32,372 bases of DNA from contig JAGVYA010000014.1 of assembly GCA_018303505.1 (NCBI GenBank), forward strand, positions 1 to 32,372. The letters are read 5' to 3'. Under the pieces are notes generated by a model. That model did not search any database. It was not told the origin of the DNA and saw only the letters and a list, made by a program, of their open reading frames with translations. Shown here piece by piece: positions 71 through 32,372 of the stretch. Made by a program: the position numbers and the translations under genes. Within the stretch, counting starts at the first letter, position 1. The number at the start of each line of letters is the position of its first letter. The stretch is from Candidatus Woesearchaeota archaeon (GTDB lineage Archaea; Nanobdellota; Nanobdellia; Woesearchaeales; GW2011-AR4).

Positions 71-274
71 GCGCAAAGCGAAACCCGTGGTAGTTCACAG
101 AAAAAAATAAGAATAGAAGATACGCTTGGCGGGGAAAAGATAGCTATTGAATTTGACAAAGGATTGAAATCAGCAAGAGCCTCTAAAGAATCTGGAGAGC
201 AGATTGTTGTTGATACTCTATTTTGGTTTGCGTGGGCTGCGTTCCATCCTGATACTGAGTTGTATAAAAAATGA
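71..274 (+). pseudogene. C-terminal fragment of a DUF3179-like protein, upstream frame broken
   Basis: Open frame ending at TGA 272-274 reads ...IRIEDTLGGEKIAIEFDKGLKSARASKESGEQIVVDTLFWFAWAAFHPDTELYKK; the FWFAWAAFHPDTELY ending is typical of DUF3179. An in-frame stop at 68-70 lies in a hairpin-rich segment. The stop overlaps the next ATG (ATGA at 271-274). Confidence 0.55.
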
Positions 275-2742
275 GGAAATTAATTGCTGTATTACTACTC
301 TTTATTCTTTTTCCCCCTTATACTTATGCCTATTACCACCACACTTCTCCAATCAAATGGTATGAATATAACCAAAAGACTTTTGATGTGGCAAAAACAG
401 AAGATAAGCCTATTTTTATGCTTGTAACAGCAGTTTGGTGTTATTGGTGCCATGTTTATAGAGACGAAACTTTGCATCAGCCAGAGATTGTCGATTACAT
501 AAACAAAAACTTTATTCCAGTTTTTGTTGACGCTGATAAAAGACAAGACTTAACAAGGCAGTATTTAGCTGGAGGATGGCCATCAACTGTTATTTTCTCG
601 CCTGATGGAAGGGAAGTTTCCCGAATTAATGGGCATATAAAGAAGCAAGATTTGCTTAATTATCTGGAAAAGATTGTTAAATTCTTCGATACAAATGAAC
701 TTCCAGCCAATTACACTAAAAAAGATTTAATTCTAAGAACATACAAAGTAATTCCCGGAAAATCTGAATTGCAGCAATTGACCGATAACTTTCCTTTTAT
801 TCTTCTTCAGAGTTATGACGCCGCATATGGCGGTTTTGGCACGGGACAGAAATTTCCAAGCGCTGCAGCTTGGGAATACATTCTTTATGTTTATGAGAAA
901 ACAGGCAACAAGGAATTTCTTGATGCTGCAACTAATACGTTAAATCATATTTACAATGATAATTACATCGATGATTGGAATAAGCCACTTGATTTAGGCG
1001 AGTTTAATGGATTAAGAAAGTATGATGAAGAAAGAAAATTTCAAGGAATTTATGATCCTGTTGAAGGAGGCTTTTTCAGGTATGCAACAAGAAGAGACTG
1101 GAGCATACCTCATTATGAAAAGATTCTTGATGTTAATGCAGAATTAATAAAACTTTATCTTCATGCATACAACATCACAAAGGACCCAAAATATAAAGAA
1201 ATTGCTCAAAAGAGCCTGCAATATGCAATTAACAATCTTTACGATAAAGCAAATGGTGGCTTTTACGGCTCGCAAGATGCTGGGCATGAGATTTATTACA
1301 GACAAAAACCAGAAGAAAGATTCCAAAATTCAAAAGAACCAATACCAATAATTGACAAAACAAAATATTCTGATTTGAATGCCCCAATGGCTATTACTTT
1401 TTTCTATGCTGCTGATATTTTGCAAAACAAAACATATGAGGATATTGCAGTAAAAAGTATGGAATTTTTTAGAAAAAACATGCTGACTGAAAATGGAATA
1501 CTGCACTTTTACGATGAAAAGGGTGCACAATTAAATGGCTTGTTGTTGGATAATGCTTACATGAGCCTTGCGTTTGTTGAAGCATACGAACAAACTGGAG
1601 ATGAAAAGTACAAGGATGCTGCATTGCAATTAATTAACTTTTCATTAAAAAAGCTTTATGATGGCAAGACAGGAGCTTTCTTTGAAAGAAACAGCACGGA
1701 CAGGCATTACTATGCAGGAGACGAATATTTTTTAGGTGAAATACCTTATTCTGGAAATAGTGCAATGGCATTGGCATTAGTTAAATCTTATGATTTAACC
1801 AAAAATAAAAATTACTTAGACACTTCAAATACTATAATTGGCTACTTTATTCAAGGAATTGGAGATTTTGATAATGCTGCAATGCAAGCTTTAACTGCCG
1901 AATCTGTATTAAGAAATAAAAACGATTTAAAGAATACAGTTGAAATAGTAGAGAGCAAAGAAGAAATCAAATTAGCACAAAATCTACAAATTAATTGGCT
2001 ATTATTTTTGGTTGCTTTTATTGTTGGCTTACTAAGCTTTTTAAGCCCATGCACTTTGCCTATATTACCAGCATATTTTGCTTATACATTCAAATCGGAA
2101 AGAAGGAAATTGATTCTAAACAGTTTGGCTTTCTTTTTAGGATTAGCTTTGGTATTTTCAATTCTTGGTATGACATCTACTTTTATAGGCTCTTTTTTAA
2201 GGAATAATAGTCTGCAAATAGGCAGATACCTTGGCGTAGTTGTTATTGTATTTGGCGTATTCGTAATATTGGGAAGAGGATTTCAATTATTCAGAATCAA
2301 GCAAAAAACCTCTCACACTGTTGCAGGTTCCTTCTTGTTTGGCATAATTTTCGGCATTGGGTGGACACCATGCATTGGTCCTATATTAGCCAGCTTGTTT
2401 ATCATAGCTTCTCAATCATCAACAGCATTTACAGGAGGTATTTTGTTATTGCTTTATGCTCTAGGATTAGCAATTCCATTGATACTTTTGTCATTTTTCT
2501 TTGATAGGCTTGACCAGCAGGGCAGATTCTGGAAATTTCTGCAAGGCAAAGAATGGAAAATTAAAATATTCAAAAAAGAAATATATCTGCATTCTACAAG
2601 TTTAATAAGCGGTTCTTTATTAATAATAATTGGTTTGTTAATGTCGTTGGGATATTTATATGCCTTTAATCAGTTAGTAAGAACCACTTCTTTCCAGAAA
2701 TGGATTTTTGGATTTGAGGAGAAGTTGTTTAATTTGTTTTAA
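271..2742 (+). CDS. Thioredoxin-domain (DUF255/YyaL-like) protein fused to a C-terminal CcdA/DsbD-type transmembrane domain
   Basis: N-terminal signal and AVWCYWCHVYRDE (CxxC, DUF255-like), long alpha-barrel-like middle, then LLSFLSPCTLPILPAYFAYTF and FGIGWTPCIGPILASLF, the two CcdA Cys-Pro helices. Confidence 0.85.
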   Translation: MRKLIAVLLLFILFPPYTYAYYHHTSPIKWYEYNQKTFDVAKTEDKPIFMLVTAVWCYWCHVYRDETLHQPEIVDYINKNFIPVFVDADKRQDLTRQYLAGGWPSTVIFSPDGREVSRINGHIKKQDLLNYLEKIVKFFDTNELPANYTKKDLILRTYKVIPGKSELQQLTDNFPFILLQSYDAAYGGFGTGQKFPSAAAWEYILYVYEKTGNKEFLDAATNTLNHIYNDNYIDDWNKPLDLGEFNGLRKYDEERKFQGIYDPVEGGFFRYATRRDWSIPHYEKILDVNAELIKLYLHAYNITKDPKYKEIAQKSLQYAINNLYDKANGGFYGSQDAGHEIYYRQKPEERFQNSKEPIPIIDKTKYSDLNAPMAITFFYAADILQNKTYEDIAVKSMEFFRKNMLTENGILHFYDEKGAQLNGLLLDNAYMSLAFVEAYEQTGDEKYKDAALQLINFSLKKLYDGKTGAFFERNSTDRHYYAGDEYFLGEIPYSGNSAMALALVKSYDLTKNKNYLDTSNTIIGYFIQGIGDFDNAAMQALTAESVLRNKNDLKNTVEIVESKEEIKLAQNLQINWLLFLVAFIVGLLSFLSPCTLPILPAYFAYTFKSERRKLILNSLAFFLGLALVFSILGMTSTFIGSFLRNNSLQIGRYLGVVVIVFGVFVILGRGFQLFRIKQKTSHTVAGSFLFGIIFGIGWTPCIGPILASLFIIASQSSTAFTGGILLLLYALGLAIPLILLSFFFDRLDQQGRFWKFLQGKEWKIKIFKKEIYLHSTSLISGSLLIIIGLLMSLGYLYAFNQLVRTTSFQKWIFGFEEKLFNLF

Positions 2743-6970: not shown

Positions 6971-6990
6971 ATGTATATACGTATATACAT
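6971..6990. promoter_or_regulatory. 20-bp perfect palindrome at the start of the NTase gene (candidate operator)
   Basis: ATGTATATACGTATATACAT is self-complementary, lies about 5-10 bp after the CATTTAAATA TATA box and overlaps the ATG at 6989. Confidence 0.7.
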
Positions 6991-7786
6991 GATAACAAAA
7001 CTGGTCCAAAAGTTTGGCAACAGCGGACATATAGTGTTGTCAAAAGAGTATATAGGTAAAAGAATAAGATTTATTGCAGAGCCTAAAACATTTGAAGATA
7101 TAAAGTCAAGTATATTAAAAATAATTAAACCATATTTGGAGAATGTATTGGGTGTTTACTTGTACGGCTCTTACGCAAGAAATGAGCAAACCATTGATTC
7201 AGATGTGGATATTTTGATAGTTACAGATACAAAATTAAAAATCATAGATAAAATTGAAGACTTTTCAATTGTCTCTACAACTGTAAAAGGAATTGAAAAT
7301 GCACTAAATAATAATGCTGTTTTGATATTGCCAATAATAAAAGAAGCTAAAACTGTAATCAATCCAGATTTATTAGAGAAATACAAATATCATAAATTTA
7401 CAAAGAAAAATACCAAGTGGTTTATTGATAGCTCTATAACTGCTTTAGAATTAAATAAGAAAGGTATAGAATTAGATTTTGAAACAGGCAGTCTTGTTTA
7501 TTCTTTAATATTAAGAATAAGAGGTTTGCTAATGATAAAACTTATGCTTAATAATAAACTATATTCAAAATCTTTGTTGTTTAATTATCTAGAAAATAAT
7601 GATTTCTCAAAAGAAAAAATTGGGGAATTGTATAAGATTTATAATAAAGAAAAAAACAGCATAAGGGCAAAAGAAAGTAATATAATAAAAAAAGAAGATT
7701 TAGCAAAGTTATTAATTATAGCTGAAAAATTATTGAAAGAAGTAAAAAATTTATTTAAACATCAAAATTCCACTTATGTATCATAA
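6989..7786 (+). CDS. DUF2080-like N-terminal domain + MNT-type nucleotidyltransferase + helical (HEPN-like) C-terminus
   Basis: KLVQKFGNSGHIVLSKEYIGKRIRFI (DUF2080-like), YLYGSYARNEQTIDSDVDILIV (NTase GS..D.D). Same architecture as 25495-26322. ATG at 6989 is a likelier start than 6971. Confidence 0.8.
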   Translation: MITKLVQKFGNSGHIVLSKEYIGKRIRFIAEPKTFEDIKSSILKIIKPYLENVLGVYLYGSYARNEQTIDSDVDILIVTDTKLKIIDKIEDFSIVSTTVKGIENALNNNAVLILPIIKEAKTVINPDLLEKYKYHKFTKKNTKWFIDSSITALELNKKGIELDFETGSLVYSLILRIRGLLMIKLMLNNKLYSKSLLFNYLENNDFSKEKIGELYKIYNKEKNSIRAKESNIIKKEDLAKLLIIAEKLLKEVKNLFKHQNSTYVS

Positions 7787-14128: not shown

Positions 14129-14995
14129 TCACAACTTTCCTTTCTCTTCAGGCTTCTTAAATGCTATCCTAGCAATTAGCAAAAATACACCAATAATTAT
14201 AATAGCCCATACCACTAAAGGCATTCTGCCCAAATATTGGCTGGCAAAATTAGTAAAATTGGCAAGGTAAATATTTATAGTTGTTTGATATTTGCTGGAC
14301 ATTGCAAGCTGGCCTGTAAAAGCCAGATAAAGTATAAGAATGCCCATACCAAGAAATGTTGTTCCTGATAGTATGTCTGCTAGTGTCAGGCTAATAGTAT
14401 TCCCTCCAATCTTATACGAAATTTGTTTTTTGAATATCGATAATTTCTTGGTAAAGTCTGTTTTGTCAAGGAAATACGCAATAACAAACAGCGGAGTTGT
14501 CATCCCAAGAACATAAGCAACAGCATACATGCCTCCCCAGAAAATAGAGCCTGGCAGGGCTGCCAAGGCAAGCACGCCTGCCAATACTGGTGCGCAGCAG
14601 AGAGTGGCAAATCCTGAAAAAATCCCCAGCACAAAAACAGAGCCTGCGTTTTGAATCTTTATTTTTGGATGTGGCGAAAATGGCATGGAAAAGTGTCTGC
14701 CTAGCAATATAGATGCTCCAAGCGAGAAGAGGACTATGCCTCCTATGATAAAGATGGTGTCGTGGTATTTGCTAAATAATTGCCCTAGACCAGCCATTCC
14801 CAAGCCCAAAGGCAAAAATACCACAAGCAGCCCAATGAAAAATACGAATGTCATCAAAAAAACTGTGCGCTTTTGCCTGAATATTGAGCCAAGATAAGCT
14901 GGCAACAATACAGTTATGCAGCAAGGCGCAAATAGCGCAGCTATCCCTGCGATGAAAGCAGCTGCAAGAGATGCCCCAACCAATATGTCTGCCAT
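14129..14995 (-). CDS. CcdA-family cytochrome c biogenesis/thiol-disulfide transmembrane protein
   Basis: IAALFAPCCITVLLPAYLGSIF and FSGFATLCCAPVLAGVLALAALPG; multi-pass. Confidence 0.85.
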   Translation of the reverse strand: MADILVGASLAAAFIAGIAALFAPCCITVLLPAYLGSIFRQKRTVFLMTFVFFIGLLVVFLPLGLGMAGLGQLFSKYHDTIFIIGGIVLFSLGASILLGRHFSMPFSPHPKIKIQNAGSVFVLGIFSGFATLCCAPVLAGVLALAALPGSIFWGGMYAVAYVLGMTTPLFVIAYFLDKTDFTKKLSIFKKQISYKIGGNTISLTLADILSGTTFLGMGILILYLAFTGQLAMSSKYQTTINIYLANFTNFASQYLGRMPLVVWAIIIIGVFLLIARIAFKKPEEKGKL

Positions 14996-15004
14996 GTTGC
15001 ACCT

Positions 15005-15877
15005 TTATGAAAGCTTTTCTATCTCAGAAGCCAATTTATCATTCCATACTGCCATGTTTTTGTCGTCTAATGTATATCGGACAATCCCTTCCTTATCAAT
15101 TATAAAATAAGTATGGCCAGGGTAAGAGCCAGGATGCATTGACGACGGCAGGGATAAGACATCATAAGCAGAAGAAACTGATCTGACAGCATCAAATAAA
15201 ATTTTTGCCTTTGAAAGCTGCGGCACCCGCTTAACAATTCTTTCCCACTCGCTTTTTTGGTCTACTACTATCGAGAATGCCGCAACATTATTAGTGTTGA
15301 ACCTTTCATCATTTCCTAACTCTGCCATCTGGTTCCAGCACGCAGGATAGCACATGCTCCCTTCATTAAAAAAAAGCACAACATACTTTCCTTTGTAATC
15401 ATTCAGTTTGACGGTTTTGCCGTCAATGCCTTCTAGGCTGAATTCCGGCGCTTTTTTTCCTAAGGCTTGGTTGAATGAAAGCTTTTCAGCTGGGAATAAA
15501 TTTGGATTTCGCTTGGCAAGCTCAGCTTCTATTTCAGCCCTCTTTGGCTCTATAATTGAGTTGATGCCGTACTTCTCAGCAGTTTTAATAATAATCTCAT
15601 TTTTAGAGAGCCCTGCATTTACTAGAGAATCAATGTAGTTTATCATCTCTTCAGCCATGCCGCAGCATATGTTATTTTTATCCAAAGGCTGGCCACAGCA
15701 CGCGCACAGAAACAAGGGGTATATTTCTTCTCCCGAAACCGGCTCAAGAGAAACTGCTCCTGTGGGATTTTTATTGTTTTTTGCTAAGAGCAAATACGCA
15801 AAAATACCTATGATAAACATTACTAAAACTGCTGCTAGATAAACATATTTCTTCTTGATTAATAATATATTTTTCAT
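15005..15877 (-). CDS. Membrane-anchored CcmH-like + redoxin (AhpC/TSA/TlpA-like) protein
   Basis: N-terminal TM; LFLCACCGQPLDKNNICCGMAEEMINYIDSL (CcmH-like); APEFSLEGIDGKTVKLNDYKGKYVVLFFNEGSMCYPACWNQM. Confidence 0.75.
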   Translation of the reverse strand: MKNILLIKKKYVYLAAVLVMFIIGIFAYLLLAKNNKNPTGAVSLEPVSGEEIYPLFLCACCGQPLDKNNICCGMAEEMINYIDSLVNAGLSKNEIIIKTAEKYGINSIIEPKRAEIEAELAKRNPNLFPAEKLSFNQALGKKAPEFSLEGIDGKTVKLNDYKGKYVVLFFNEGSMCYPACWNQMAELGNDERFNTNNVAAFSIVVDQKSEWERIVKRVPQLSKAKILFDAVRSVSSAYDVLSLPSSMHPGSYPGHTYFIIDKEGIVRYTLDDKNMAVWNDKLASEIEKLS

Positions 15878-17961: not shown

Positions 17962-18750
17962 TTATTTTTTCTTGCTTAGTCTAAATAACATAATCAAACC
18001 AAGTATAAATAAGGGAAAGCTCAGCAACTGCCCCATTGTGAAATAATTAAAAATAAATCCAATCTGCTCATCCGGAGCTCTGAAAAATTCTATAAATGTT
18101 CTAAACAAGCCATATAGTGTTATAAAGCTCCAGGACATAAAGCCTTTCGGCAGCTTTTTGTCTTTAATAAACCATAACACAGCAAAAATTGTAAGATTCT
18201 TGATTGAAGCATAAATCTGGGAAGGATGCCTGCAGCCGCTTGGCAGATTTTCAATGAATTTATTTTTTGAGTAATCTATGCACCAGTCAACATTGGTTAT
18301 TCTTCCATAAAGCTCTGCATTCATAAAATTTCCAATCCTTCCTAAAGCCAATGCCAAGGCAACAGGAACAACAACAATGTCTGCTAAATCATAAAAAGCA
18401 ATTTTCTTTCTTCTGCAAAATATATAAGCTGATGTTATTGCGCCTAGCAAGCCGCCATGAAAGCTCAAGCCGCCATGCCACACTGCGATTATTTCAAAAG
18501 GATTTTGCAGATAAAATATTGGATTGTAAACTATAACATAAACAAGTCTTGCTCCTAAAACAACGCCGACAATAACATAAACTAAAAAATCTGCAACATC
18601 ATCTTTTGTTATGCTTAATTCCTTTCTTTTTGCTAGGTAAGATATTAAAAAATAAGCAATCACAAATCCAAGAGCATAAAACAGCCCATAATACCTAATC
18701 TGAAAAGGTCCAAGCTCAATCAGCACAGGGTTTATGTTGTGGAAAAACAT
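17962..18750 (-). CDS. lgt: Prolipoprotein diacylglyceryl transferase Lgt
   Basis: IRYYGLFYALGFVIAYFL, AVWHGGLSFHGGLLGA, GRIGNFMNAELYGR, HPSQIYAS, FRTFIEFFRAPDEQIG. Confidence 0.93.
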   Translation of the reverse strand: MFFHNINPVLIELGPFQIRYYGLFYALGFVIAYFLISYLAKRKELSITKDDVADFLVYVIVGVVLGARLVYVIVYNPIFYLQNPFEIIAVWHGGLSFHGGLLGAITSAYIFCRRKKIAFYDLADIVVVPVALALALGRIGNFMNAELYGRITNVDWCIDYSKNKFIENLPSGCRHPSQIYASIKNLTIFAVLWFIKDKKLPKGFMSWSFITLYGLFRTFIEFFRAPDEQIGFIFNYFTMGQLLSFPLFILGLIMLFRLSKKK

Positions 18751-22118: not shown

Positions 22119-24746
22119 TTAAATATGCTTTTGCCTCAATTCCTCAACTACTCTTTTAAGTTCTTCAATAATATTAATATTTGAGCTAAAAGGTTTCTTT
22201 GCTATGTCAGTTGATAAAAATCTTATTGCATTATCAAATTGCTTCGTTCTTATGTAAGTTACCACTCCGTCTAAAATAGCATACTGAGTATTATCCAAAA
22301 TTTTATTTATTGTTCCAAAAACAAGTTTTCTTTCTACCTCATCAAACCTTTCGTTCCTAAAAGCTTCAAATAAATCGTTAAAGAATGCGGTTACATCTGG
22401 AGTAGGTTGAGATATTATTGTAGGAGGTACAGTTATTTCTGGACGGCCTTCTTCTGCTGTGCCTAAAGCTCTAACTCGATCTTCTTCTAATTTTAATAGT
22501 ATTTTTGCTGCCTTAATGAACCCCTCTTTTTTTACTTTCATCTTAACAAATCTAACAATTGCTCTTACCCTTCTGTTGATCCTTTTTGATTTTTCATGTA
22601 AGGCAGGACTTATTCTTTCTAAAATCCTTTTTTCCTCAAATTCTTTAAGTTCCTCTGCTGCTTCTTCAGCCTCTACTGCAGCTTCTTCAACTTCTCTTCT
22701 ACCTCTTATGGGAATTTTTTCTTTTATTCTTTTTAAACTATTACTTATTCTTTTTAGCAAAGTTCTTTCTCTTTTAACAGCGTCCATTAAATTGATTCTC
22801 ATTCGTGATGGTAGAGGAACTGGCGCTGCAGGTGTTGGTGCTCTGAGCACTCTTGGTGTTGTTGTAGGCGTCTCTGGTGGTTGAATAGTTACTTTTACAT
22901 AATTGTTAGAAACGTGAATTGGTCTATTATTTGTACCAAGCAACCATATTATAATGAAGTGGTCACCTACTGGAAGCTCTATTTCGTCTCTTATATTTAC
23001 AGCTGTGGCGGTACTGGTTTTTAATATCCTAAATCTTGTTGTTCTGCTTGCTACGAGACGCCCTGCTAACAAGTCCCTAGCGCCTTCTTCTGCATTTATC
23101 CAAACCCATTGATAATTATATTGTCTTTGAGGTGATATTTCCAAATTACCCATTTGAGCTTCAAAGGTAACAACTTTTTGATCTTCACCTACATCTAAAG
23201 TAAGAACTGTGTTATTTTGAGGAGATGTTATTTGAATAGAAGGACGTACTGTAGGTACTTCTGGAGCAAGTGGTTGTGCGGGTCGACCTTCAGTTACAAT
23301 TCTTTTTAACTCTTCCAATCTATTTATCTGCTCTTCAATTTTTTCTGATAATGCTACTATAATCTTATTTTCAGCAGCGACATAAACATCCAATTTTTTC
23401 TCATTATCCTTAACCGTTTCAAACTTTCCTCTGACAAGCTGTTCTATATTTTCTTCTTCCAATAAGTTAATTTGATCCTGCCTTAGAATATCTACACGCT
23501 TTTCAAAATCATAGCAAATTTTAATTAACCATACAATCCCAATTTCTTTTATTTTCTTAGTATTCCCTCTTTCTCTAATCAAATTATCTAAGAAAGCCAA
23601 ATCATTACCCACATTTCCTCTTTGGCTTAGGAATTGCTGCCATTCTGTAAATTTATTTAGGAGATCCTTCTCTACATCTTTTAATTCTTTAAGTTCTGTT
23701 ACAAATTGCATTTCAACGTCAAACAATCTTTTAAGAGGATCATTCTGGTCTGTAATGCTTCTTAGCCCTTCCCATAGATTTGCACGTTCTAACTCACCTA
23801 ATTTACTAACAACTGCAATTTTTTGATCAGCAGCTTGAATTATCCGATTTTTATTATCTCTTGTGTCGTTTATTTTTGTTATTGAGTCTCTTTTCTGCCT
23901 TATTATTTCATCTATTTTTGCAATAATTTGTTCTACTGTTAATTCCTCTGGCCTCGTTGGCGGTCTTCCCCTTCTCCACCAATCCCATATTTTTTTGCCA
24001 CCATAACCAAGACCACCCAAAGCAGGAAGCCCAAACAAAAATATCAAAACCCATGCCCACCATGGAAAGCCTTTTTCTTCAGGTGCTGGAGCAGTTGGCG
24101 TTGTAGTTGGTGTCAGCGTAGTCAAATCTGGCCCTGTAGGAGCTGTTGTTGGTGCTCCAAACAAATCACTTAAGTAACTAGGCACTCCAGGCGTTTCGGG
24201 AAATTGTATGCTGGCAAAACTCTTAGATAATGAACTGAAAAAGCCTTCTGTGTCAGGAGATAAGGTGCCAAATAAGCCTTGGATTAATCCAATAGTCAGC
24301 AATGTCAATAGCAAAGCCAAAATAAATCTCCAAAACTTATTCTTTATCCCTTTTAGCAGCCACCAATATAAAATAAATAATAATGTATACAAAATCCAAG
24401 CTATATAAGGCAGCAATATTGTAGCTGAAAATCCTCCTAACACAAGCAAAAACGCTGTCATCAAGCCAAGCAAAATTGCAATGACTTTCTCTGGCTTTTT
24501 TACTTCCTTAAAAGCATACCTTGTGCCCATCATGTAAATTGATATAAACAGCAATGCAAAGAAGAAAAAGTCTATAGCTGTTGCATATGGCTTATACTGC
24601 TCTTTTGCAAAGAAGTCATTAATTTGTATCAAGCCGCTTCTGAAAGCATCTGTGAAAGGCTTTGCGTAAGTTATAGTTGAGAACAGTAAGATAAACATGA
24701 ATATCCAAATCATTACATTTCTCAACTTTTTAGCTTGTTTTTTCAT
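22119..24746 (-). CDS. Large membrane/coiled-coil protein of unknown function
   Basis: Signal-like N-terminus, about 4 TM helices, P/T-rich linker (APTTAPTGPDLTTLTPTTTPTAPAPEE), TM WWAWVLIFLFGLPALGGLG, then about 600 aa of charged helices around a beta-rich segment. Confidence 0.7.
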   Translation of the reverse strand: MKKQAKKLRNVMIWIFMFILLFSTITYAKPFTDAFRSGLIQINDFFAKEQYKPYATAIDFFFFALLFISIYMMGTRYAFKEVKKPEKVIAILLGLMTAFLLVLGGFSATILLPYIAWILYTLLFILYWWLLKGIKNKFWRFILALLLTLLTIGLIQGLFGTLSPDTEGFFSSLSKSFASIQFPETPGVPSYLSDLFGAPTTAPTGPDLTTLTPTTTPTAPAPEEKGFPWWAWVLIFLFGLPALGGLGYGGKKIWDWWRRGRPPTRPEELTVEQIIAKIDEIIRQKRDSITKINDTRDNKNRIIQAADQKIAVVSKLGELERANLWEGLRSITDQNDPLKRLFDVEMQFVTELKELKDVEKDLLNKFTEWQQFLSQRGNVGNDLAFLDNLIRERGNTKKIKEIGIVWLIKICYDFEKRVDILRQDQINLLEEENIEQLVRGKFETVKDNEKKLDVYVAAENKIIVALSEKIEEQINRLEELKRIVTEGRPAQPLAPEVPTVRPSIQITSPQNNTVLTLDVGEDQKVVTFEAQMGNLEISPQRQYNYQWVWINAEEGARDLLAGRLVASRTTRFRILKTSTATAVNIRDEIELPVGDHFIIIWLLGTNNRPIHVSNNYVKVTIQPPETPTTTPRVLRAPTPAAPVPLPSRMRINLMDAVKRERTLLKRISNSLKRIKEKIPIRGRREVEEAAVEAEEAAEELKEFEEKRILERISPALHEKSKRINRRVRAIVRFVKMKVKKEGFIKAAKILLKLEEDRVRALGTAEEGRPEITVPPTIISQPTPDVTAFFNDLFEAFRNERFDEVERKLVFGTINKILDNTQYAILDGVVTYIRTKQFDNAIRFLSTDIAKKPFSSNINIIEELKRVVEELRQKHI

Positions 24747-24748
24747 AC

Positions 24749-25267
24749 CTAAAACCTTGAAATGCAGTTTTTTATTATTTCAACAATTTTATCTTCGCCA
24801 AACAGCACAACGCCTTTTTTCAAAATTTGAAGCATTTGCGAGTCTTTTTTCCTCAACAAATCAATAATTTCATCTTCTGTTTTTGTGATGACTTCAATAT
24901 TTGGAATAGAAATGTCAAAAACTGTAATATTGTCTGTTATCAGCAATAAACTCTTTTCATCAAGAATAGCAGCATTTGCCTGTTTAAATTGCTCAATGTT
25001 TAAGTCAATTTTTTCATCAGAATGCAGCAAAACAATTTCAGCAAGATGCTCAGCAATTTTATTTTCAAAATTGATTGAATAAAACAAGCCAGTTCCTAGT
25101 TTCTGGCCAACAACAATGCTTTGTTTTTCCAGTTTCTTAAGAATGTTAAAAACTCCAGCTGGGCTAAAGTTAAGCCTTTGAGCAATATTCCTTATAGTAA
25201 GCTTTTCACTGAAGTTTCTGACTAAGAAGTTCAATACGCTAAATTCGTTGTCCGATAAAGATAGCAT
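24749..25267 (-). CDS. Winged-helix DNA-binding protein
   Basis: LTIRNIAQRLNFSPAGVFNILKKLEKQSIVVGQKLGTGLFYSIN; 2-nt gap to the downstream 875-aa gene. Confidence 0.75.
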   Translation of the reverse strand: MLSLSDNEFSVLNFLVRNFSEKLTIRNIAQRLNFSPAGVFNILKKLEKQSIVVGQKLGTGLFYSINFENKIAEHLAEIVLLHSDEKIDLNIEQFKQANAAILDEKSLLLITDNITVFDISIPNIEVITKTEDEIIDLLRKKDSQMLQILKKGVVLFGEDKIVEIIKNCISRF

Positions 25268-25474: not shown

Positions 25475-25496
25475 GTCTATACCAAGTCTATACAAT
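25475..25496 (+). promoter_or_regulatory. Tandem repeat GTCTATACCAA/GTCTATACAAT between TATA box and ATG (candidate operator)
   Basis: CATTTAAATA at about 25460-25469, then two GTCTATAC units 11 bp apart ending at ATG 25495. Confidence 0.65.
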
Positions 25497-26322
25497 GAAT
25501 ACACAAAAATTAGCAATAAAAGAGCAACTTGTTAAAACAGTTGTAAAATCAGGCAATGGCGGAGCAGTCTGGGTTCCAAAAAACTGGCTTGGACAAGAAG
25601 TTATAGTTATACTTCCAGACAAGCCTAAATTGAATGTAAAAGAAAAAGTTATACATCTGCTTGAGCCTTATTTAAAAGATGTTATAGCTGTTTTTATTTA
25701 TGGTTCATATGCAAGACATGAAGAAACAAAAGATTCTGATTTAGATGTTATGGTTGTCACAAAAGATAAAACAATCGCAATAGAAATTAAAGAACCCAAT
25801 TTAGAAATAAGCGTTTTTCAATTAGACAAGTTAAAAATGGCAATTGAAAAATATCCGGTTATGTACTATCAAATTGTCCAGGAAGCAGTCCCATTAATTA
25901 ACTTTTATGTTTTAAATGAATTAAAAAATATTAAAATTGACAATGAAAACTTTAAAAAATACATTAATGAAACAAAAGAGCATATAGAAAGCAATAAAGA
26001 GCTTATAGGGCTTGATAAATTAGACGACAAATATGTTAAATCTTATTCTGTATTATATTCAACAGTGTTGAGGTTAAGAGGATTGTTTATTATAAAATGC
26101 ATATTAAACAAAGAGAAATTTTCAAATAAAGCATTTCAGGAATGGCTAATTCAAAATAGGATGACACATCAAGAATTTGAGCAATGCTATGCAACTTACA
26201 GGGCAGTTAAAAATGATAAAAGCACTCAAAATTTAAAGATTGAAATTTCTGTCGCGGAAAAATTATTAAATATTTTAATTCAGTGTGTAAATTCTATAGA
26301 AGCTGAGCTTTATGGTAAATAG
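25495..26322 (+). CDS. DUF2080-like N-terminal domain + MNT-type nucleotidyltransferase + helical C-terminus
   Basis: VKTVVKSGNGGAVWVPKNWLGQEVIVI; FIYGSYARHEETKDSDLDVMVV; VLRLRGLFIIKCILN matches ILRIRGLLMIKLMLN in the 6989 paralog. Confidence 0.82.
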   Translation: MNTQKLAIKEQLVKTVVKSGNGGAVWVPKNWLGQEVIVILPDKPKLNVKEKVIHLLEPYLKDVIAVFIYGSYARHEETKDSDLDVMVVTKDKTIAIEIKEPNLEISVFQLDKLKMAIEKYPVMYYQIVQEAVPLINFYVLNELKNIKIDNENFKKYINETKEHIESNKELIGLDKLDDKYVKSYSVLYSTVLRLRGLFIIKCILNKEKFSNKAFQEWLIQNRMTHQEFEQCYATYRAVKNDKSTQNLKIEISVAEKLLNILIQCVNSIEAELYGK

Positions 26323-26503
26323 AAAAAAGAGATTGCAAAAGGGCATTGAATCTATTGAAAAACAGATTAAAATACACGAAGAAAAACTCAAGAAAGCCGA
26401 GGAAGAAGATAATATAGAGCTTGCTTCATATTATAAAAAAGAGATAGAAGCAAAGAAAAAAGACAAGGATGAAAAGAAAAGATTGCTTAAGAAAGGCGGG
26501 TAA
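26312..26503 (+). CDS. Small highly charged helical protein
   Basis: 63 aa, MVNRKKRLQKGIESIEKQIKIHEEKLKKAEEEDNIELASYYKKEIEAKKKDKDEKKRLLKKGG; overlaps the NTase 3' end by 11 nt. Confidence 0.65.
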   Translation: MVNRKKRLQKGIESIEKQIKIHEEKLKKAEEEDNIELASYYKKEIEAKKKDKDEKKRLLKKGG

Positions 26504-26520
26504 CAATAATTATATATATC

Positions 26521-26537
26521 TTTATTTAGAATGAATG
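26521..26537. repeat. 17-bp direct repeat, copy 2: TTTATTTAGAATGAATG
   Basis: Identical to 25400-25416; the pair flanks the NTase + charged protein cassette. Confidence 0.75.
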
Positions 26538-26581
26538 TTTGGAAATTTTGTACGCTATGGTGTAACTTTTCAGTTATTTAT

Positions 26582-28423
26582 TCAACCAGATTGCTGCGGC
26601 TTAAACGGATCCTTTGTTAATGGTCTGCCCCATCTTCCTAGATTCGGACCAATATCGTAACCATGCGTTTGATCAGCAATTTTACTTAATAACTGCAAGA
26701 CTCCTTCCTTGTTTCCTGAACCCCCCCAGTATTTAGTTTGGTCTATAACCCTGTGCAGCATGTAAAGGGCAGCACCTCTTGTAGTAAGCGTTGGTTCTTT
26801 TGATTGCACACTCTGATCTTGTCCCTCATAATAATACTTTCTTCCCCAGTGAATCGCCTTGCCTGTTGCATTTTTCAAATCAAAGGCTGGATTTAAATGA
26901 GTTGACTTTATAGTCTCGTGGACCACATCTGGGTCAGTGTTAGGTCTGAATTGCCCTGCTCCTAGTTTATTAAGTTTTACCCTGACTTTGGCGTGAGGGT
27001 TTTCTCTACTTCTGCTAAAATCAGGAGACAAAATCGTCCCGTCAGGAGTCAGAACATAATCTCTTACATTTCTTGGTTCTAATGGGTCAAGATTTTCCAT
27101 TAGATACTCCATTATAGACATAGAGTCTTCATGGTATCGTGCATCTCTCATGTCATCTCTATAAGAGTCATAGTGAGCATAAACATACACGGCAATGTCA
27201 ACTGGATGGCATTCTGTTATGAATCTGGGATCTACTTCTCTGACTTGCACGGCTGGTTCGTTTGTTAATCCATGGGCCACATCCCAGTTATGGAATATGT
27301 CTATCACAACCTTATTTTCTTCTAAAACTACATTTCTAAATCCTATTTTTCCATCTCCAATTTCAAGCGGCATTCCATTTTCATCTAATCCAGCCGCAAA
27401 TTCTTTTCCCCTGCGAAAATTTGGATGAAAGTCAGCAAATCTTCTAACAACACCATTTACAATAATTTCTTTGTGCATGTCTATAATTTTATAAGTGTGA
27501 GTATAATGAACTTGATCAGGTGGCAGTCTTAAACCCATTATCTGCTTCTTTAGATCGTCCATCAAGGGGAACATGTTTGCCACGGTACCTCTTCCGCTCA
27601 CTAAACTGTAATGGATCTTGCTTTCAAATGCTCTGGTTTTTTCTTCCACAGCCTTTATTGCTGCTTTATACCTTTCTCTAATTATCTCTAAATTTTTATT
27701 GATATTTTCTTGCTGTTCTCCAGTCTTACCTGCCCTTATTCTGTTACCATAGTCATCGATTATATTACTAATATCCCTACTTAAAAGTTCAATATACTGG
27801 TTTATACCTCTCTCCCCGAAAAAAGCTGCTTGGTAAGTAAGATTACCATGCCTAAATACTTGTTCTTTTGGCAAAATATAACGATATTCCAAAGGCTGTC
27901 CTCTTGGATTACTTTGGTCGCTAAGTTTTATCCAAGGTCTATCAGCTATATCCTTAAAGCCTGTGCCTGTGTTCAAGTAGCCCCCTTCCCTTTCTATTTC
28001 CTCTTTATCAGTAAAATATCCAATTCCCTGATTGTGTCTTACAAATTCATGTGTATCTACTCCTACTTGTACACTGAACTTTTCTTTGTCATTGAAATTA
28101 TTTGCATAGTAATCAATCATTTGATCCATTTTTCCAGCAGCAGAATTTGGATCTGCCTTTTTATCTGGTCTTTCTTCTTTTGGAATGCCGTCCCATTTTA
28201 GCTCTGTATTAACCATCAGATCATTCAAATCCGCAATGGTGCCAAAATTGATTTCACGCTTTATTTCATCGTAGACATTTATGTCTGTCAATTCAAAACC
28301 AGGTTCAGGCTCGTCTTTAAACCCACTGAATCCCATTTTTCTTAGAATCCATTTTCTCCATTGAGTCACTGGTAATATATGCCTTATTCCTTTTCTCTGC
28401 TCTTTTGGTTGTTCATCAGCCAT
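26582..28423 (-). CDS. Large soluble protein of unknown function, WGRK paralog A
   Basis: 613 aa; KAIHWGRKYYYEGQDQS resembles ALNYWGRKKYFDQSPNG of 30058-31443; 8-nt overlap with the upstream gene. Confidence 0.7.
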   Translation of the reverse strand: MADEQPKEQRKGIRHILPVTQWRKWILRKMGFSGFKDEPEPGFELTDINVYDEIKREINFGTIADLNDLMVNTELKWDGIPKEERPDKKADPNSAAGKMDQMIDYYANNFNDKEKFSVQVGVDTHEFVRHNQGIGYFTDKEEIEREGGYLNTGTGFKDIADRPWIKLSDQSNPRGQPLEYRYILPKEQVFRHGNLTYQAAFFGERGINQYIELLSRDISNIIDDYGNRIRAGKTGEQQENINKNLEIIRERYKAAIKAVEEKTRAFESKIHYSLVSGRGTVANMFPLMDDLKKQIMGLRLPPDQVHYTHTYKIIDMHKEIIVNGVVRRFADFHPNFRRGKEFAAGLDENGMPLEIGDGKIGFRNVVLEENKVVIDIFHNWDVAHGLTNEPAVQVREVDPRFITECHPVDIAVYVYAHYDSYRDDMRDARYHEDSMSIMEYLMENLDPLEPRNVRDYVLTPDGTILSPDFSRSRENPHAKVRVKLNKLGAGQFRPNTDPDVVHETIKSTHLNPAFDLKNATGKAIHWGRKYYYEGQDQSVQSKEPTLTTRGAALYMLHRVIDQTKYWGGSGNKEGVLQLLSKIADQTHGYDIGPNLGRWGRPLTKDPFKPQQSG

Positions 28424-30065
28424 TTTTCACACCTTTTGATCTGGTTAGGGACAAAAATGCGCCTAACATCTCTCTTGTTTTATTCAAATCAACACCTTCA
28501 ATATTCAATCTTACTGAACTTGCAAAGTTAACAAAACTAACATTTATCTGAACTAGCTCATTTATATCTTTGTCTATTTGCAGGATCGCACTATTTAAGT
28601 ATTCAGATTTACGCTTTAGTTCCGCTTCGTGCCTTTTTAAACCATAAAATAAGTCACGCATTCTTGCCAAATCAAAATCAAGCATCAGCAAATTTGGGAA
28701 TACATTTTTTCCAGTGCTTAAATTTTGGAATAAAAGCTTTTTGTGAATTCTAAATTCATTCAAAGTCTTAAGCTTAACCATGAATATGTAAGTGTCACGG
28801 TCTATCATTCCCTTTTCAAATATATCTCTAATAATTGGCTCTAATTTATTGTGCCTGTCGGAAATTTCTTTAAAAAATTGCCTGAACTGCCTTTTTCTTG
28901 CTTCCCATAGTCTATCAACAAATCTTTCGATATTTTTTATCGTATTTTCCAGAAAATCATCAATATATTTCGAGGATTCAGAAAGTATTTCTCCAATTTG
29001 GTTTTGTGCGGTTGTGAATATTTTATCTCGCCTTTTTCCAAATATATCTATCAAAAATTCCTGTGAGCTTCTAATAGCATACTCTTTTTTGCCAATTGCC
29101 CCTTCAACTATTCTAATCATTTGCCGAAGCATATCTCTTAACTTGAACGGCTGCTCACCAATTTCTCTGGCTTGCCGTCTAAGCATATTTACTAAATAAA
29201 CATTCTTGTAGTTATTTACTAGGGTATCAGCATAACTATTAACATTATCTAAAAATAGTTTAGTGCTTTTGTTTTGGACCCAGACATCTCCAGAAATATC
29301 TTGCTCTAAGTCTTTAATGAGCGAGGCCAGAAATACTTTTTGCGCTTCTGCCTTGAATGTTAAGTGAGCAATAGCTCTTAAGTACCTAATAGGACGTGAA
29401 TCATAAACTATTTTTTTCAGTTCAGTATCTTTAAATTTATCAATTCCAGCAAAATTGCTTGGAGTTATTGGTCTAAAGTAAGAACCCATACGCGTCAAAT
29501 AAAATTCTATTTCACTGTGTGGCAGACGATCCCAATTCTTTAGATCATTTATTGCAATCTGCAATGCATCTGACTCTTCTAGTTTATTTTTTATTGAAAG
29601 TATTCTATTCCTAATTTGCACTTTTAGTTTTTCCTGGCTTAGTTGATCTATATTCTTCAAAACAACATTAATATTTATTCTGAATTCATCGATATTCCGC
29701 GTCATTTCTAAAACTTTTTCAAGAATTTCCAAATCCCTAATTATTTTGGCCAAATCTGCTTCTACCAGCCTATAGGCGTTCTTGTCAGACTGGATTTGGA
29801 AAATAATCTGCCTCAATGCAGGCATTAACCCGCTTATGTCCAGGACCTTGCCCTTCATCTGTTCTTTTTGCCGTCTTATAACTGAAATTAGCCTGTATTC
29901 TGATGCCAAAGCTTTCAATCTTTTATCGTTGTTGATTACGATGGAGAAATTAGTATTCATTAAGTCTGAAGTGTCGAGAATATCCAAAGAAGCTTCTAAA
30001 TACTGCACGATTTTTTCATTAATAAGTTGTACTTCTTCCTCAGGATTTATTATTTCTTCAGCCAC
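28416..30065 (-). CDS. Long helical/coiled-coil protein of unknown function
   Basis: 549 aa, heptad-rich, no TM; GTG start inside the end of the upstream gene (GTGGCTGA). Confidence 0.7.
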   Translation of the reverse strand: MAEEIINPEEEVQLINEKIVQYLEASLDILDTSDLMNTNFSIVINNDKRLKALASEYRLISVIRRQKEQMKGKVLDISGLMPALRQIIFQIQSDKNAYRLVEADLAKIIRDLEILEKVLEMTRNIDEFRININVVLKNIDQLSQEKLKVQIRNRILSIKNKLEESDALQIAINDLKNWDRLPHSEIEFYLTRMGSYFRPITPSNFAGIDKFKDTELKKIVYDSRPIRYLRAIAHLTFKAEAQKVFLASLIKDLEQDISGDVWVQNKSTKLFLDNVNSYADTLVNNYKNVYLVNMLRRQAREIGEQPFKLRDMLRQMIRIVEGAIGKKEYAIRSSQEFLIDIFGKRRDKIFTTAQNQIGEILSESSKYIDDFLENTIKNIERFVDRLWEARKRQFRQFFKEISDRHNKLEPIIRDIFEKGMIDRDTYIFMVKLKTLNEFRIHKKLLFQNLSTGKNVFPNLLMLDFDLARMRDLFYGLKRHEAELKRKSEYLNSAILQIDKDINELVQINVSFVNFASSVRLNIEGVDLNKTREMLGAFLSLTRSKGVKNG

Positions 30066-31443
30066 CTTGTTTCTCCTGGTATGTTTTGTCTATTATATCA
30101 TAACCTTGCTTGAAATAATCATTTAGTATTTTTTTTGTTCTTTCTGGATCACCAGCAGTTGCAGTTGAATATTTGAAAATAAAGTTCCATAATCCTTTTA
30201 AAGATATTCCAGGATATGGATTGGCCGGATATTGCCTGATTTCGCTTCCATTTGGAGATTGATCAAAGTACTTTTTTCTGCCCCAATAATTGAGCGCGTG
30301 TGGTATTTTGAGAGCTTCTCTATCAAATGCAACTTCTCCCATTCCCAGTGGTCTATCGAATGGTGCAGTGCTGAATTTTTCATAGATTATATCAAAGTAT
30401 CTTTGGTAATTGTCTACCCTTCTGCTTAAGGGATGAAACACACCACTAAGCATATCTCTGGTGGCATATTCCCAATCCTTTTCTGAAAATGTTAAAACAT
30501 GTTCAAACCTTGCGTCGCCTTGTGCTGTTACATGTAGTTCACTGACATCAGATTTATATTTTTCATCCCTTAGATCTATATAACCAACTCTGAACCTTCT
30601 GATGTATGGAAGATTAATTCCCTCTACTTGTATTTTATTAATGTCAGTGATACTAAAACCATGTATATCCAGTTCCAAAAGTTCCTCACCATTCGGATCT
30701 TCTTTGTACTCATTCCGGAAAAGTCCAGGAATTTTTACAACTTTCTTAAAATCGATCGATCTTGTGATTGTGTGACCTACATCTTCTTGAGATGGCTGCT
30801 CAATTGCTTGATCGTAAGAATAGTGTTCTGCGAGTGCTCCAGGTTTCGCGAACAAATAACCTCTTTTATATCTTCCATACATGTTTAGCAAGTCCCAAAA
30901 TGCTAGCTTATTTGCTCTTGTTATTAGCCAACCTTTATACCTTCCTATACCTGACAAATATCGGTTGTACCTAGTATCAATATGATTTTTCCACGCATTA
31001 GATATAATCTTTCCACCTTCTCCAGTTTGAATCCAATTTCCTGCTTGAGTTGTTGCGGACTCCGCTTTTTCAGGTTTTTGGGTTAGGTCTTGCTCCAAAT
31101 CCTGCTTCAATTGATTCATTAATTGAACAAAAATAAAATAAAACCTTCCCCATCCAACGGAATTTCTTGGGTCCCCAAGCTTGTTCCATATGTCACCAGC
31201 AGGTCCGATTTCCGCGCCTTCAATATGGCCCTTGATGCCACCCAAAATTTCCTCTTCAGTAGGCTTCATAGTCCCCAATCTTCTTTCAGCTTCTTTAATC
31301 TCTTCCTTGATACCAGTAACGGCAGCACCCTTTCTCATCCAAACTTCGTGTCTCAACATCCAGTTTAACAAAGTGTAAATCTCCAGTCTCATATCTTTTA
31401 TATCAAATGGCAACTCATCAGAAAAACTCTTCTCATTGTCCAT
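30058..31443 (-). CDS. Soluble protein of unknown function, WGRK paralog B
   Basis: 461 aa; ALNYWGRKKYFDQSPNGSEIRQYPANPYPGISLKGLWNFIFKYS. Confidence 0.7.
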   Translation of the reverse strand: MDNEKSFSDELPFDIKDMRLEIYTLLNWMLRHEVWMRKGAAVTGIKEEIKEAERRLGTMKPTEEEILGGIKGHIEGAEIGPAGDIWNKLGDPRNSVGWGRFYFIFVQLMNQLKQDLEQDLTQKPEKAESATTQAGNWIQTGEGGKIISNAWKNHIDTRYNRYLSGIGRYKGWLITRANKLAFWDLLNMYGRYKRGYLFAKPGALAEHYSYDQAIEQPSQEDVGHTITRSIDFKKVVKIPGLFRNEYKEDPNGEELLELDIHGFSITDINKIQVEGINLPYIRRFRVGYIDLRDEKYKSDVSELHVTAQGDARFEHVLTFSEKDWEYATRDMLSGVFHPLSRRVDNYQRYFDIIYEKFSTAPFDRPLGMGEVAFDREALKIPHALNYWGRKKYFDQSPNGSEIRQYPANPYPGISLKGLWNFIFKYSTATAGDPERTKKILNDYFKQGYDIIDKTYQEKQGG

Positions 31444-32372
31444 GCAGCAAGTTTATTCTGTCTTAATTTTCTTTTTATCTCCTGCCAGCCTCTTGACCTT
31501 CCTTCCTGTACCATAGACTGTTTGTCTGCTCTTTGTTTAGCCCTCCCTATCACAAACAAAAATATCAAGGCTATGATTACAATTACAAGCGCCCCACCAC
31601 CCATTTTGAATATCCATCCAAACCATCCTCCAACACCAGTTGGCGGTGCTGGCGCCCCAGTTGGTCCAACTGTAAGTAAACCTAATTTCCAGAGTGGATA
31701 TCCAACAAAAGTGGCCAACCATCCCTGATACTCTGTTCCATAAGTCATTGCAGCAGAAGCCCATCCAACCAAAAATGCTGCAAGTATCCAGTTAGTGCCA
31801 AAGCCTTTCACGTTCGGTGCTGTACCCTTTAAAGCATCAGCTAGAACTATTGTAAAGATAGCTTCTCCAAGCAAAACAATGCTTGCAAAGCTTATACCAG
31901 CTCTTGCAACACTTGTACCGATTAAAATTGCCAAAGCATAGTTAACTTTATTTGTGCCGCCTGCTCCTCCTTTCAATAAAAATCCATTAAAGAAAAATAC
32001 CAACAAAGTTGTGACAGCCAAAAACGCCCATAACCTATATTCTGGAGGTGCAGGATTAAGTATTCCTTGCGCTCCAAACAAGTAATCAACAAATTGCTTT
32101 ACTACAGATTGATGCCATATCCATTGGTTGCCAATTTGAACAGCAAAAATCAAAGCAACCAAAAATATCAAAATTCCATAGCCGCCAATGCTTTCAGGTG
32201 ATTTCGGAACCTTGTCCTTTAACACAAACCCAAGCACAAAGTACAGGACAGCAGCTATTATGACTGCATTCACCAAAACATAAATGCTGAAGAATCTTGC
32301 TAATACAGGATGATTCCATATATAATCTTGGCTACCAAAAAACCATCCAATAAGCAAAGAGCCAGCTAAAAT
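31398..32372 (-). CDS. Multi-pass membrane protein of unknown function (5' end outside the window)
   Basis: Frame is open to the window edge (ILAGSLLIGWFFGSQDYIW...); about 7 TM helices, G/P-rich loop GPTGAPAPPTGVGG, final TM then basic tail. Confidence 0.7.
   Translation of the reverse strand: MLAGSLLIGWFFGSQDYIWNHPVLARFFSIYVLVNAVIIAAVLYFVLGFVLKDKVPKSPESIGGYGILIFLVALIFAVQIGNQWIWHQSVVKQFVDYLFGAQGILNPAPPEYRLWAFLAVTTLLVFFFNGFLLKGGAGGTNKVNYALAILIGTSVARAGISFASIVLLGEAIFTIVLADALKGTAPNVKGFGTNWILAAFLVGWASAAMTYGTEYQGWLATFVGYPLWKLGLLTVGPTGAPAPPTGVGGWFGWIFKMGGGALVIVIIALIFLFVIGRAKQRADKQSMVQEGRSRGWQEIKRKLRQNKLAAWTMRRVFLMSCHLI

Follow-up and report, generated by a model that had tools for sequence, protein, structure and literature searches.

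Type I restriction specificity genes and capsule loci are polymorphic exchange loci with conserved flanks, and Zorya is a membrane-anchored defence system. These, together with crenarchaeal Ced DNA import, type IV secretion and the archaeal ATPases of the ATPase_2/AAA_14 (STAND-related) type, are the described systems closest to a five-gene operon, P-M-A-C-B, of a Candidatus Woesearchaeota archaeon. The window, that is the whole stretch of DNA analysed, is an entire contig (C23; JAGVYA010000014.1 of assembly GCA_018303505.1; 32372 bases) of a metagenome-assembled genome (MAG) of 1.3 Mb that is 88% complete, and the genes M, A, C and B lie at its end. By comparison of sequences among related genomes, A-C-B was shown to be an exchange cassette, swapped between related species within conserved flanks.

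As in the polymorphic exchange loci, a conserved frame surrounds a divergent centre, the trees of alleles and flanks conflict, and silent sites point to recent transfer; unlike in them, none of the proteins belongs to a known polymorphic family, be it of restriction, capsule or another kind, and the carrier is a DPANN archaeon. A membrane protein with a (here predicted) cytosolic tail and an associated ATPase are shared with Zorya, but no MotA/MotB-like, helicase or nuclease domain was present, and PADLOC gave no match to any Zorya protein. Ced and type IV secretion likewise combine a polytopic membrane protein with an ATPase, whereas the operon had no VirB4/HerA-type ATPase, no VirB2-like small membrane proteins and no Pfam match. 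P resembles the ATPase_2/AAA_14 proteins in its Walker motifs and C-terminal winged helix; it differs in its scores below the cut-offs, in its lack of DUF234 (a nuclease-like domain found at the C-terminus of many ATPase_2 members) and in its uniform linkage to M-A-C-B.

The operon in the window and in related genomes

The sequence-only reading of this DNA had described four consecutive minus-strand open reading frames (ORFs) encoding a polytopic membrane protein, two related soluble proteins and a coiled-coil protein. The ORFs were found at the coordinates it had given: M (31398-32372, 324 amino acid residues, 5′ end cut by the contig end), A (WGRK-A; 30058-31443, 461 residues), C (28416-30065, 549 residues) and B (WGRK-B; 26582-28423, 613 residues), the last three being the first, second and third genes of the cassette. 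M was indeed polytopic, and the end overlaps were of 46 nt (M/A), 8 nt (A/C) and 8 nt (C/B), as had been stated. That reading had also proposed extending the contig and examining the gene neighbourhood. The operon, truncated on its 5′ side by the contig end, continues past position 32372 with its first gene, P, which begins on contig C29 of the same genome; positions 1-360 of C29 encode the first 120 residues of P. Beyond P on C29 are a divergent membrane protein (Q) and then a thioredoxin-reductase-like gene, the same neighbours as in the related genome G003, from which the gap between C29 and C23 was judged to be ∼1 kb.

When profiles of the five proteins were used for searching, the order P-M-A-C-B was found to be fixed in ∼30 loci of the order, with one copy per genome. 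A was detected in 27 of 198 relatives, and searches of the class and phylum with the A and B profiles detected it only within that taxonomic order, with two doubtful cases besides. P was present in 15 of the 20 genomes of the genus, including all five that were at least 90% complete, again as one copy each. The ratio of nonsynonymous to synonymous substitution rates (dN/dS) against the nearest relative was 0.13-0.22 for M, A, C and B, which shows them to be functional proteins under purifying selection.

No known family had been recognised in the sequence-only reading, and Pfam, PHROG, NCBIfam and PDB gave no fitting match for M, A, C or B. This result, the fixed gene order and the joint inheritance of A, C and B support a conserved, uncharacterised membrane-associated multiprotein system. 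Scans of IMG/VR viral contigs with P and B as queries found no relative, and no secretion-type ATPase, pilin-like or VirB-like part was detected when P, M, A, C, B and the linked protein Z (see below) were compared with Pfam and NCBIfam. PADLOC yielded weak matches only (mad8 for P, E 2e-4; LeoBC for C, E 6e-4; winged-helix models alone for the linked protein W), and a literature search found no description of a P-M-A-C-B machinery. Judged at the level of sequence, the machinery is new, being described in no library or paper searched.

Exchange of the A-C-B cassette

Over 55 pairs of genomes within the genus, the mean identity was 81% for uL2 and 77% for P, vs. 37% for M, 35% for B, 26% for A and 23% for C. 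The uL2 protein was detected with PF03947 in 19 of the 20 genomes; a seeming absence of its N-terminal domain (PF00181) from the genus was a search artefact, given that PF03947 finds uL2. The identities of A, C and B correlated with one another (Pearson 0.83-0.87) and hardly with that of uL2, and this pattern of sequence identity shows that the three were co-inherited as a block.

The borders of the block were located by alignment. Between G003 and G011, blastn gave 82% nucleotide identity over Q, P and the greater part of M, followed by 8.8 kb of G003 that could not be aligned, and 83% identity in Z; in the proteins, the sliding identity broke at M residue ∼335, just past the last transmembrane segment. 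Between G005 and G010 (uL2 97% identical), 86% nucleotide identity extended through P and the start of M, 6 kb over A-C-B could not be aligned, and 93% identity resumed directly after B. The A-C-B type of G010 resembles those of G001 and G002. In the uL2+P tree, G010 was placed with G005 (support 100/99) and a G001+G002+G010 grouping was rejected by the approximately unbiased (AU) test (p 2e-4), whereas in the A+C+B tree G010 was placed with G001, G002 and G012 and a G005+G010 grouping was rejected (AU p 1e-4); the groups were picked after the identities had been seen, so that these p values are somewhat optimistic.

A recent event was detected in the window itself. Compared with G003, differences at fourfold sites amounted to 13-26% in A, C and B and 27% in the adjacent Polbeta/MNT nucleotidyltransferase gene, vs. 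52% in W and 37-60% in the frame and flank segments; when pooled, A-C-B differed at 86 of 430 sites (20%) and the flanks at 277 of 594 (47%; Fisher p=4e-19). The synonymous divergence (dS) was 0.43 for A, 0.55 for C and 0.25 for B, against 1.0-1.4 for W, Z, LGT, TrxR and M. The change points of silent divergence fell between M and A and between the MNT gene and W. Silent-site divergence thus shows that the A-C-B of the window was exchanged recently with another species, and the toxin-antitoxin-like MNT gene at the cassette border (25495-26322, plus strand) appears to have been exchanged along with it; the block shared with G003 would span 25495-31443.

Differential loss of ancient paralogues could imitate the deep divergence, but not the drop in silent divergence. 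The genomes are mostly fragmented MAGs, and strain mixtures could create a few chimeric loci; an assembly artefact is argued against because three genome pairs agree and both flanks are conserved on single contigs. Two genomes of one other family carry two P copies or two cassettes (L068 and L069 of G149; C2 and C54 of G182), which may be duplicated operons or mixed strains.

Proteins of the frame and the cassette, and their neighbours

In relatives, P is a P-loop ATPase of 381-385 residues that opens the operon. It has a Walker A motif (GxxxxGKT), a Walker B-like hydrophobic stretch with an aspartate and, at the C-terminus, a winged-helix region. Across 12 relatives, Walker A residues G(39), G(44) and K(45) were invariant, as was D(162). 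In Pfam it matched AAA_14 (PF13173, E 6e-6) and ATPase_2 (PF01637, E 1e-5) weakly and below the curated cut-offs (26.7 vs. 27 bits and 25.6 vs. 33.2 bits, respectively), and PF03008 (DUF234) was not matched in the Pfam scan. The motifs and matches support an assignment of P as a putative archaeal ATPase_2/AAA_14-type, STAND-like P-loop ATPase.

The topology of M was deduced from hydropathy and from counts of lysine and arginine (K/R) around the predicted membrane segments, several M proteins being ambiguous. Full-length M has ∼399 residues in G003. Its C-terminal tail is positively charged and predicted to be cytosolic: 13 K/R were counted on the C-terminal side, to which A is attached, vs. 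6 on the other in the window, and 20 vs. 6, 23 vs. 9 and 20 vs. 10 in G002, G015 and G016. Seven of nine separate A proteins having membrane segments of their own likewise carried more K/R on the side of A than across the last transmembrane segment, and in Z proteins with six detected segments, including the last, the charge pattern likewise puts the C-terminal side inside. These counts support a cytosolic location of A and of the Z tail. The proposal of a membrane-associated multiprotein assembly was thus borne out by the fixed gene order and the joint inheritance of A-C-B, whereas the cell-surface, secretion or host-contact role attached to it is unsupported, because the charge patterns point to a cytosolic A and a cytosolic Z tail; no secretion or surface family was matched either. 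Between G003 and G011, the membrane-spanning part of M (residues 61-320) is 85-100% identical while the cytosolic part has been replaced, which suggests that selection operates intracellularly. A membrane hairpin is repeated within M (self-alignment E ∼2e-6), and the hairpins of M and Z are weakly alike (hhalign E 3e-4, probability 40%).

About half of the loci in relatives have M and A fused. The two genes overlap in different frames (31398-31443), by 46 nt in the window and 16 nt in G003, and form a single fused gene in the close relative G011; A of G003 has no upstream ATG. The 46-nt overlap raised the idea of a programmed frameshift that links M to A, but the A frame of G003 has a stop in the matching stretch and no shared slippery site was seen. 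More likely, therefore, a fused gene was split and the translation of its two parts is coupled. The description of A and B as a soluble pair was true of A only in the window genome and G003, since in other genomes it is joined to M or carries transmembrane segments itself.

The kinship of A and B, which the sequence-only reading had noticed, held up in profile-profile comparison (hhalign E=1.1e-20 across 174 columns at the C-termini); it was the only homology found among the five proteins, the A/C and B/C pairings and those of M and P being unrelated. At 90% identity, B has 39 invariant columns, many of them charged, vs. 16 in A; because B keeps more of them, B may be the active form and A a degenerate partner. 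C is long and all-helical in appearance, and its matches to tape-measure proteins (PHROGs), spectrin and LeoBC were ascribed to generic helical sequence. The A/B motif GRYHPxxxTxxDY gave a short local match to a protein with homing-endonuclease-associated repeats (L058, 8871-9548), too short to trust as a DNA-binding lead; the A profile match to such a protein in G356 spans ∼20-45 residues and is likewise a weak lead. One genome of another family of the class (G466) has three different A loci (L038, L055 and L056) on contigs of 2.7-3.7 kb, possibly through contamination or strain mixture. Structure prediction was unusable, with mean predicted local distance difference test (pLDDT) values of 36 for A (two sequences) and 37 for P (single sequence).

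On the other side of the cassette, W, a MarR-type winged helix-turn-helix protein (24749-25267, minus strand), is paired with the membrane protein Z (22119-24746, minus strand) within the conserved frame, and both recur beside the operon in relatives. P-M-C directly precedes Z in further families of the order (f71, f80 and others), where A and B are not recognisable; against profiles of the window type, the distant proteins matched with E 1.5e-10 (C), 8.9e-22 (M) and 3.5e-25 (Z). Because these distant families have a P-M-C-Z operon, the W-Z module is, by gene order, judged to belong to the system. Since they hold P-M-C-Z without a recognisable A or B, P-M-C-Z looks like the more ancient core, and A and B seem to have been either added to it or changed greatly in sequence. 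Z has a conserved membrane domain (residues ∼1-195), after which its tail diverges abruptly between G003 and the window; it is the second protein of the locus with a conserved anchor and a variable tail.

The genes near the 3′ border of the cassette (the 5′ side in G009) vary by genome and are mostly of the conflict type: MNT in the window, Fic and PIN in G003, HEPN in G009, G015 and G016, and an ATPase_2-DUF234 protein (locus L034) and a Schlafen AlbA_2 protein (G092). A second, paralogous Polbeta/MNT nucleotidyltransferase is encoded at 6971-7786 (plus strand), and both have an N-terminal DNA-binding-like segment. Members of family Q (L072, 786-1685; L033, 564-4482) are small membrane proteins with Ala/Pro-rich ends, transcribed divergently from P and present singly or as up to five tandem copies; one member matches Mpv17/PMP22. 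Elsewhere in the window, a prolipoprotein diacylglyceryl transferase (LGT; 17962-18750, minus strand, E 2e-78), an enzyme of bacterial lipoproteins that is uncommon in archaea, is conserved in position in G003 and G011. One protein (271-2742, plus strand) joins a DsbH-type thioredoxin domain, a sugar-epimerase-like toroid and a DsbD membrane domain, and several further DsbD/AhpC-type redox genes lie at 14129-15877.

Possible function of the system

We propose, with a probability of roughly 0.4, that the locus encodes an intracellular complex for recognition or conflict, anchored at the membrane and with exchangeable A-C-B specificity. A cytoplasmic complex would be tethered at the membrane by M and, in the linked module, by Z, and the STAND-like ATPase P, with its C-terminal winged helix, would drive, switch or load the membrane-anchored A-C-B complex. 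A-C-B, which lineages exchange through recombination within the conserved flanks (on one side P and the N-terminal portion of M, on the opposite side W-Z or a housekeeping gene), would be the variable working part, with A tethered at M, B free and C as a helical partner. The cassette would carry an allelic recognition specificity, and its diversity would be favoured by conflict inside the cell, whether with viruses or with other mobile elements; this specificity, the switching of P by ATP hydrolysis and the pressure from such elements are what we infer. That it is an undescribed archaeal recognition system, for defence or for telling self from non-self, in which A-C-B specificity cassettes are traded between DPANN species within an ATPase-membrane frame, is put forward more tentatively.

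Several observations weigh against the proposed complex. The locus is single-copy and fixed in nearly all members of the genus, whereas most defence systems are patchy in distribution. The PADLOC matches of P and C were weak, and no effector domain was recognised in the library scans. Toxin-antitoxin genes are common and may be there just because a recombination hotspot collects them; within a shared allele, A, C and B are under purifying selection; and the topology rests on hydropathy and charge, the structure predictions being unusable.

A core intracellular assembly for membrane organisation, division or a compartment, evolving fast in concert and having its block replaced by neutral recombination, would explain the near-universal presence in the genus as a single copy at a fixed locus, the purifying selection within an allele and the P-M-C-Z core kept in further families. 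We regard it as unlikely, given that alleles of 15-35% identity coexist among genomes with 90-97% uL2 identity, which is hard to account for without selection for diversity, and that the distribution is patchy outside the genus. An apparatus for host contact or secretion, in which M (with Z) builds a platform or channel powered by P, while A, C and B serve as its gate or its substrates, with a specificity fitted to the host archaeon, so that exchange tracks host switching, is to be doubted to a similar extent. It would suit a membrane platform with an ATPase and variable partners exchanged between species, and a life attached to hosts is generally assumed for Woesearchaeota; however, A and the Z tail are predicted to be cytosolic, it is the cytosolic and not the membrane part of M that G003 and G011 have replaced, P is not a secretion-type ATPase by Pfam, and no pilin, signal-peptide substrate or secretion family was matched.

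The mosaic exchange is also typical of viral modules, and a domesticated or resident mobile element or virus remnant could be imagined from the weak PHROG match of C to tail tape-measure proteins (E 0.003) and the toxin-antitoxin genes close by. Any long helical protein yields such matches, however; no viral hallmark gene was seen, the IMG/VR scans with P and B were negative, and the locus is fixed in the chromosome beside housekeeping genes, which makes this origin highly improbable.

DPANN archaea have small genomes, and yet the genus devotes ∼9 kb to one uncharacterised machine whose central block is traded between species. Swapping of a block of neighbouring genes is seen in genes pressed by viruses or rivals. 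The combination of core status and hypervariability is a sign of strong selection by viruses, hosts or rivals, and to our knowledge such selection is almost unstudied in uncultured DPANN archaea. The genes, motifs and breakpoints described here make the locus traceable in metagenomes. If a role in defence or recognition is true, the system would be of a new kind, with no sequence relative among the described systems.

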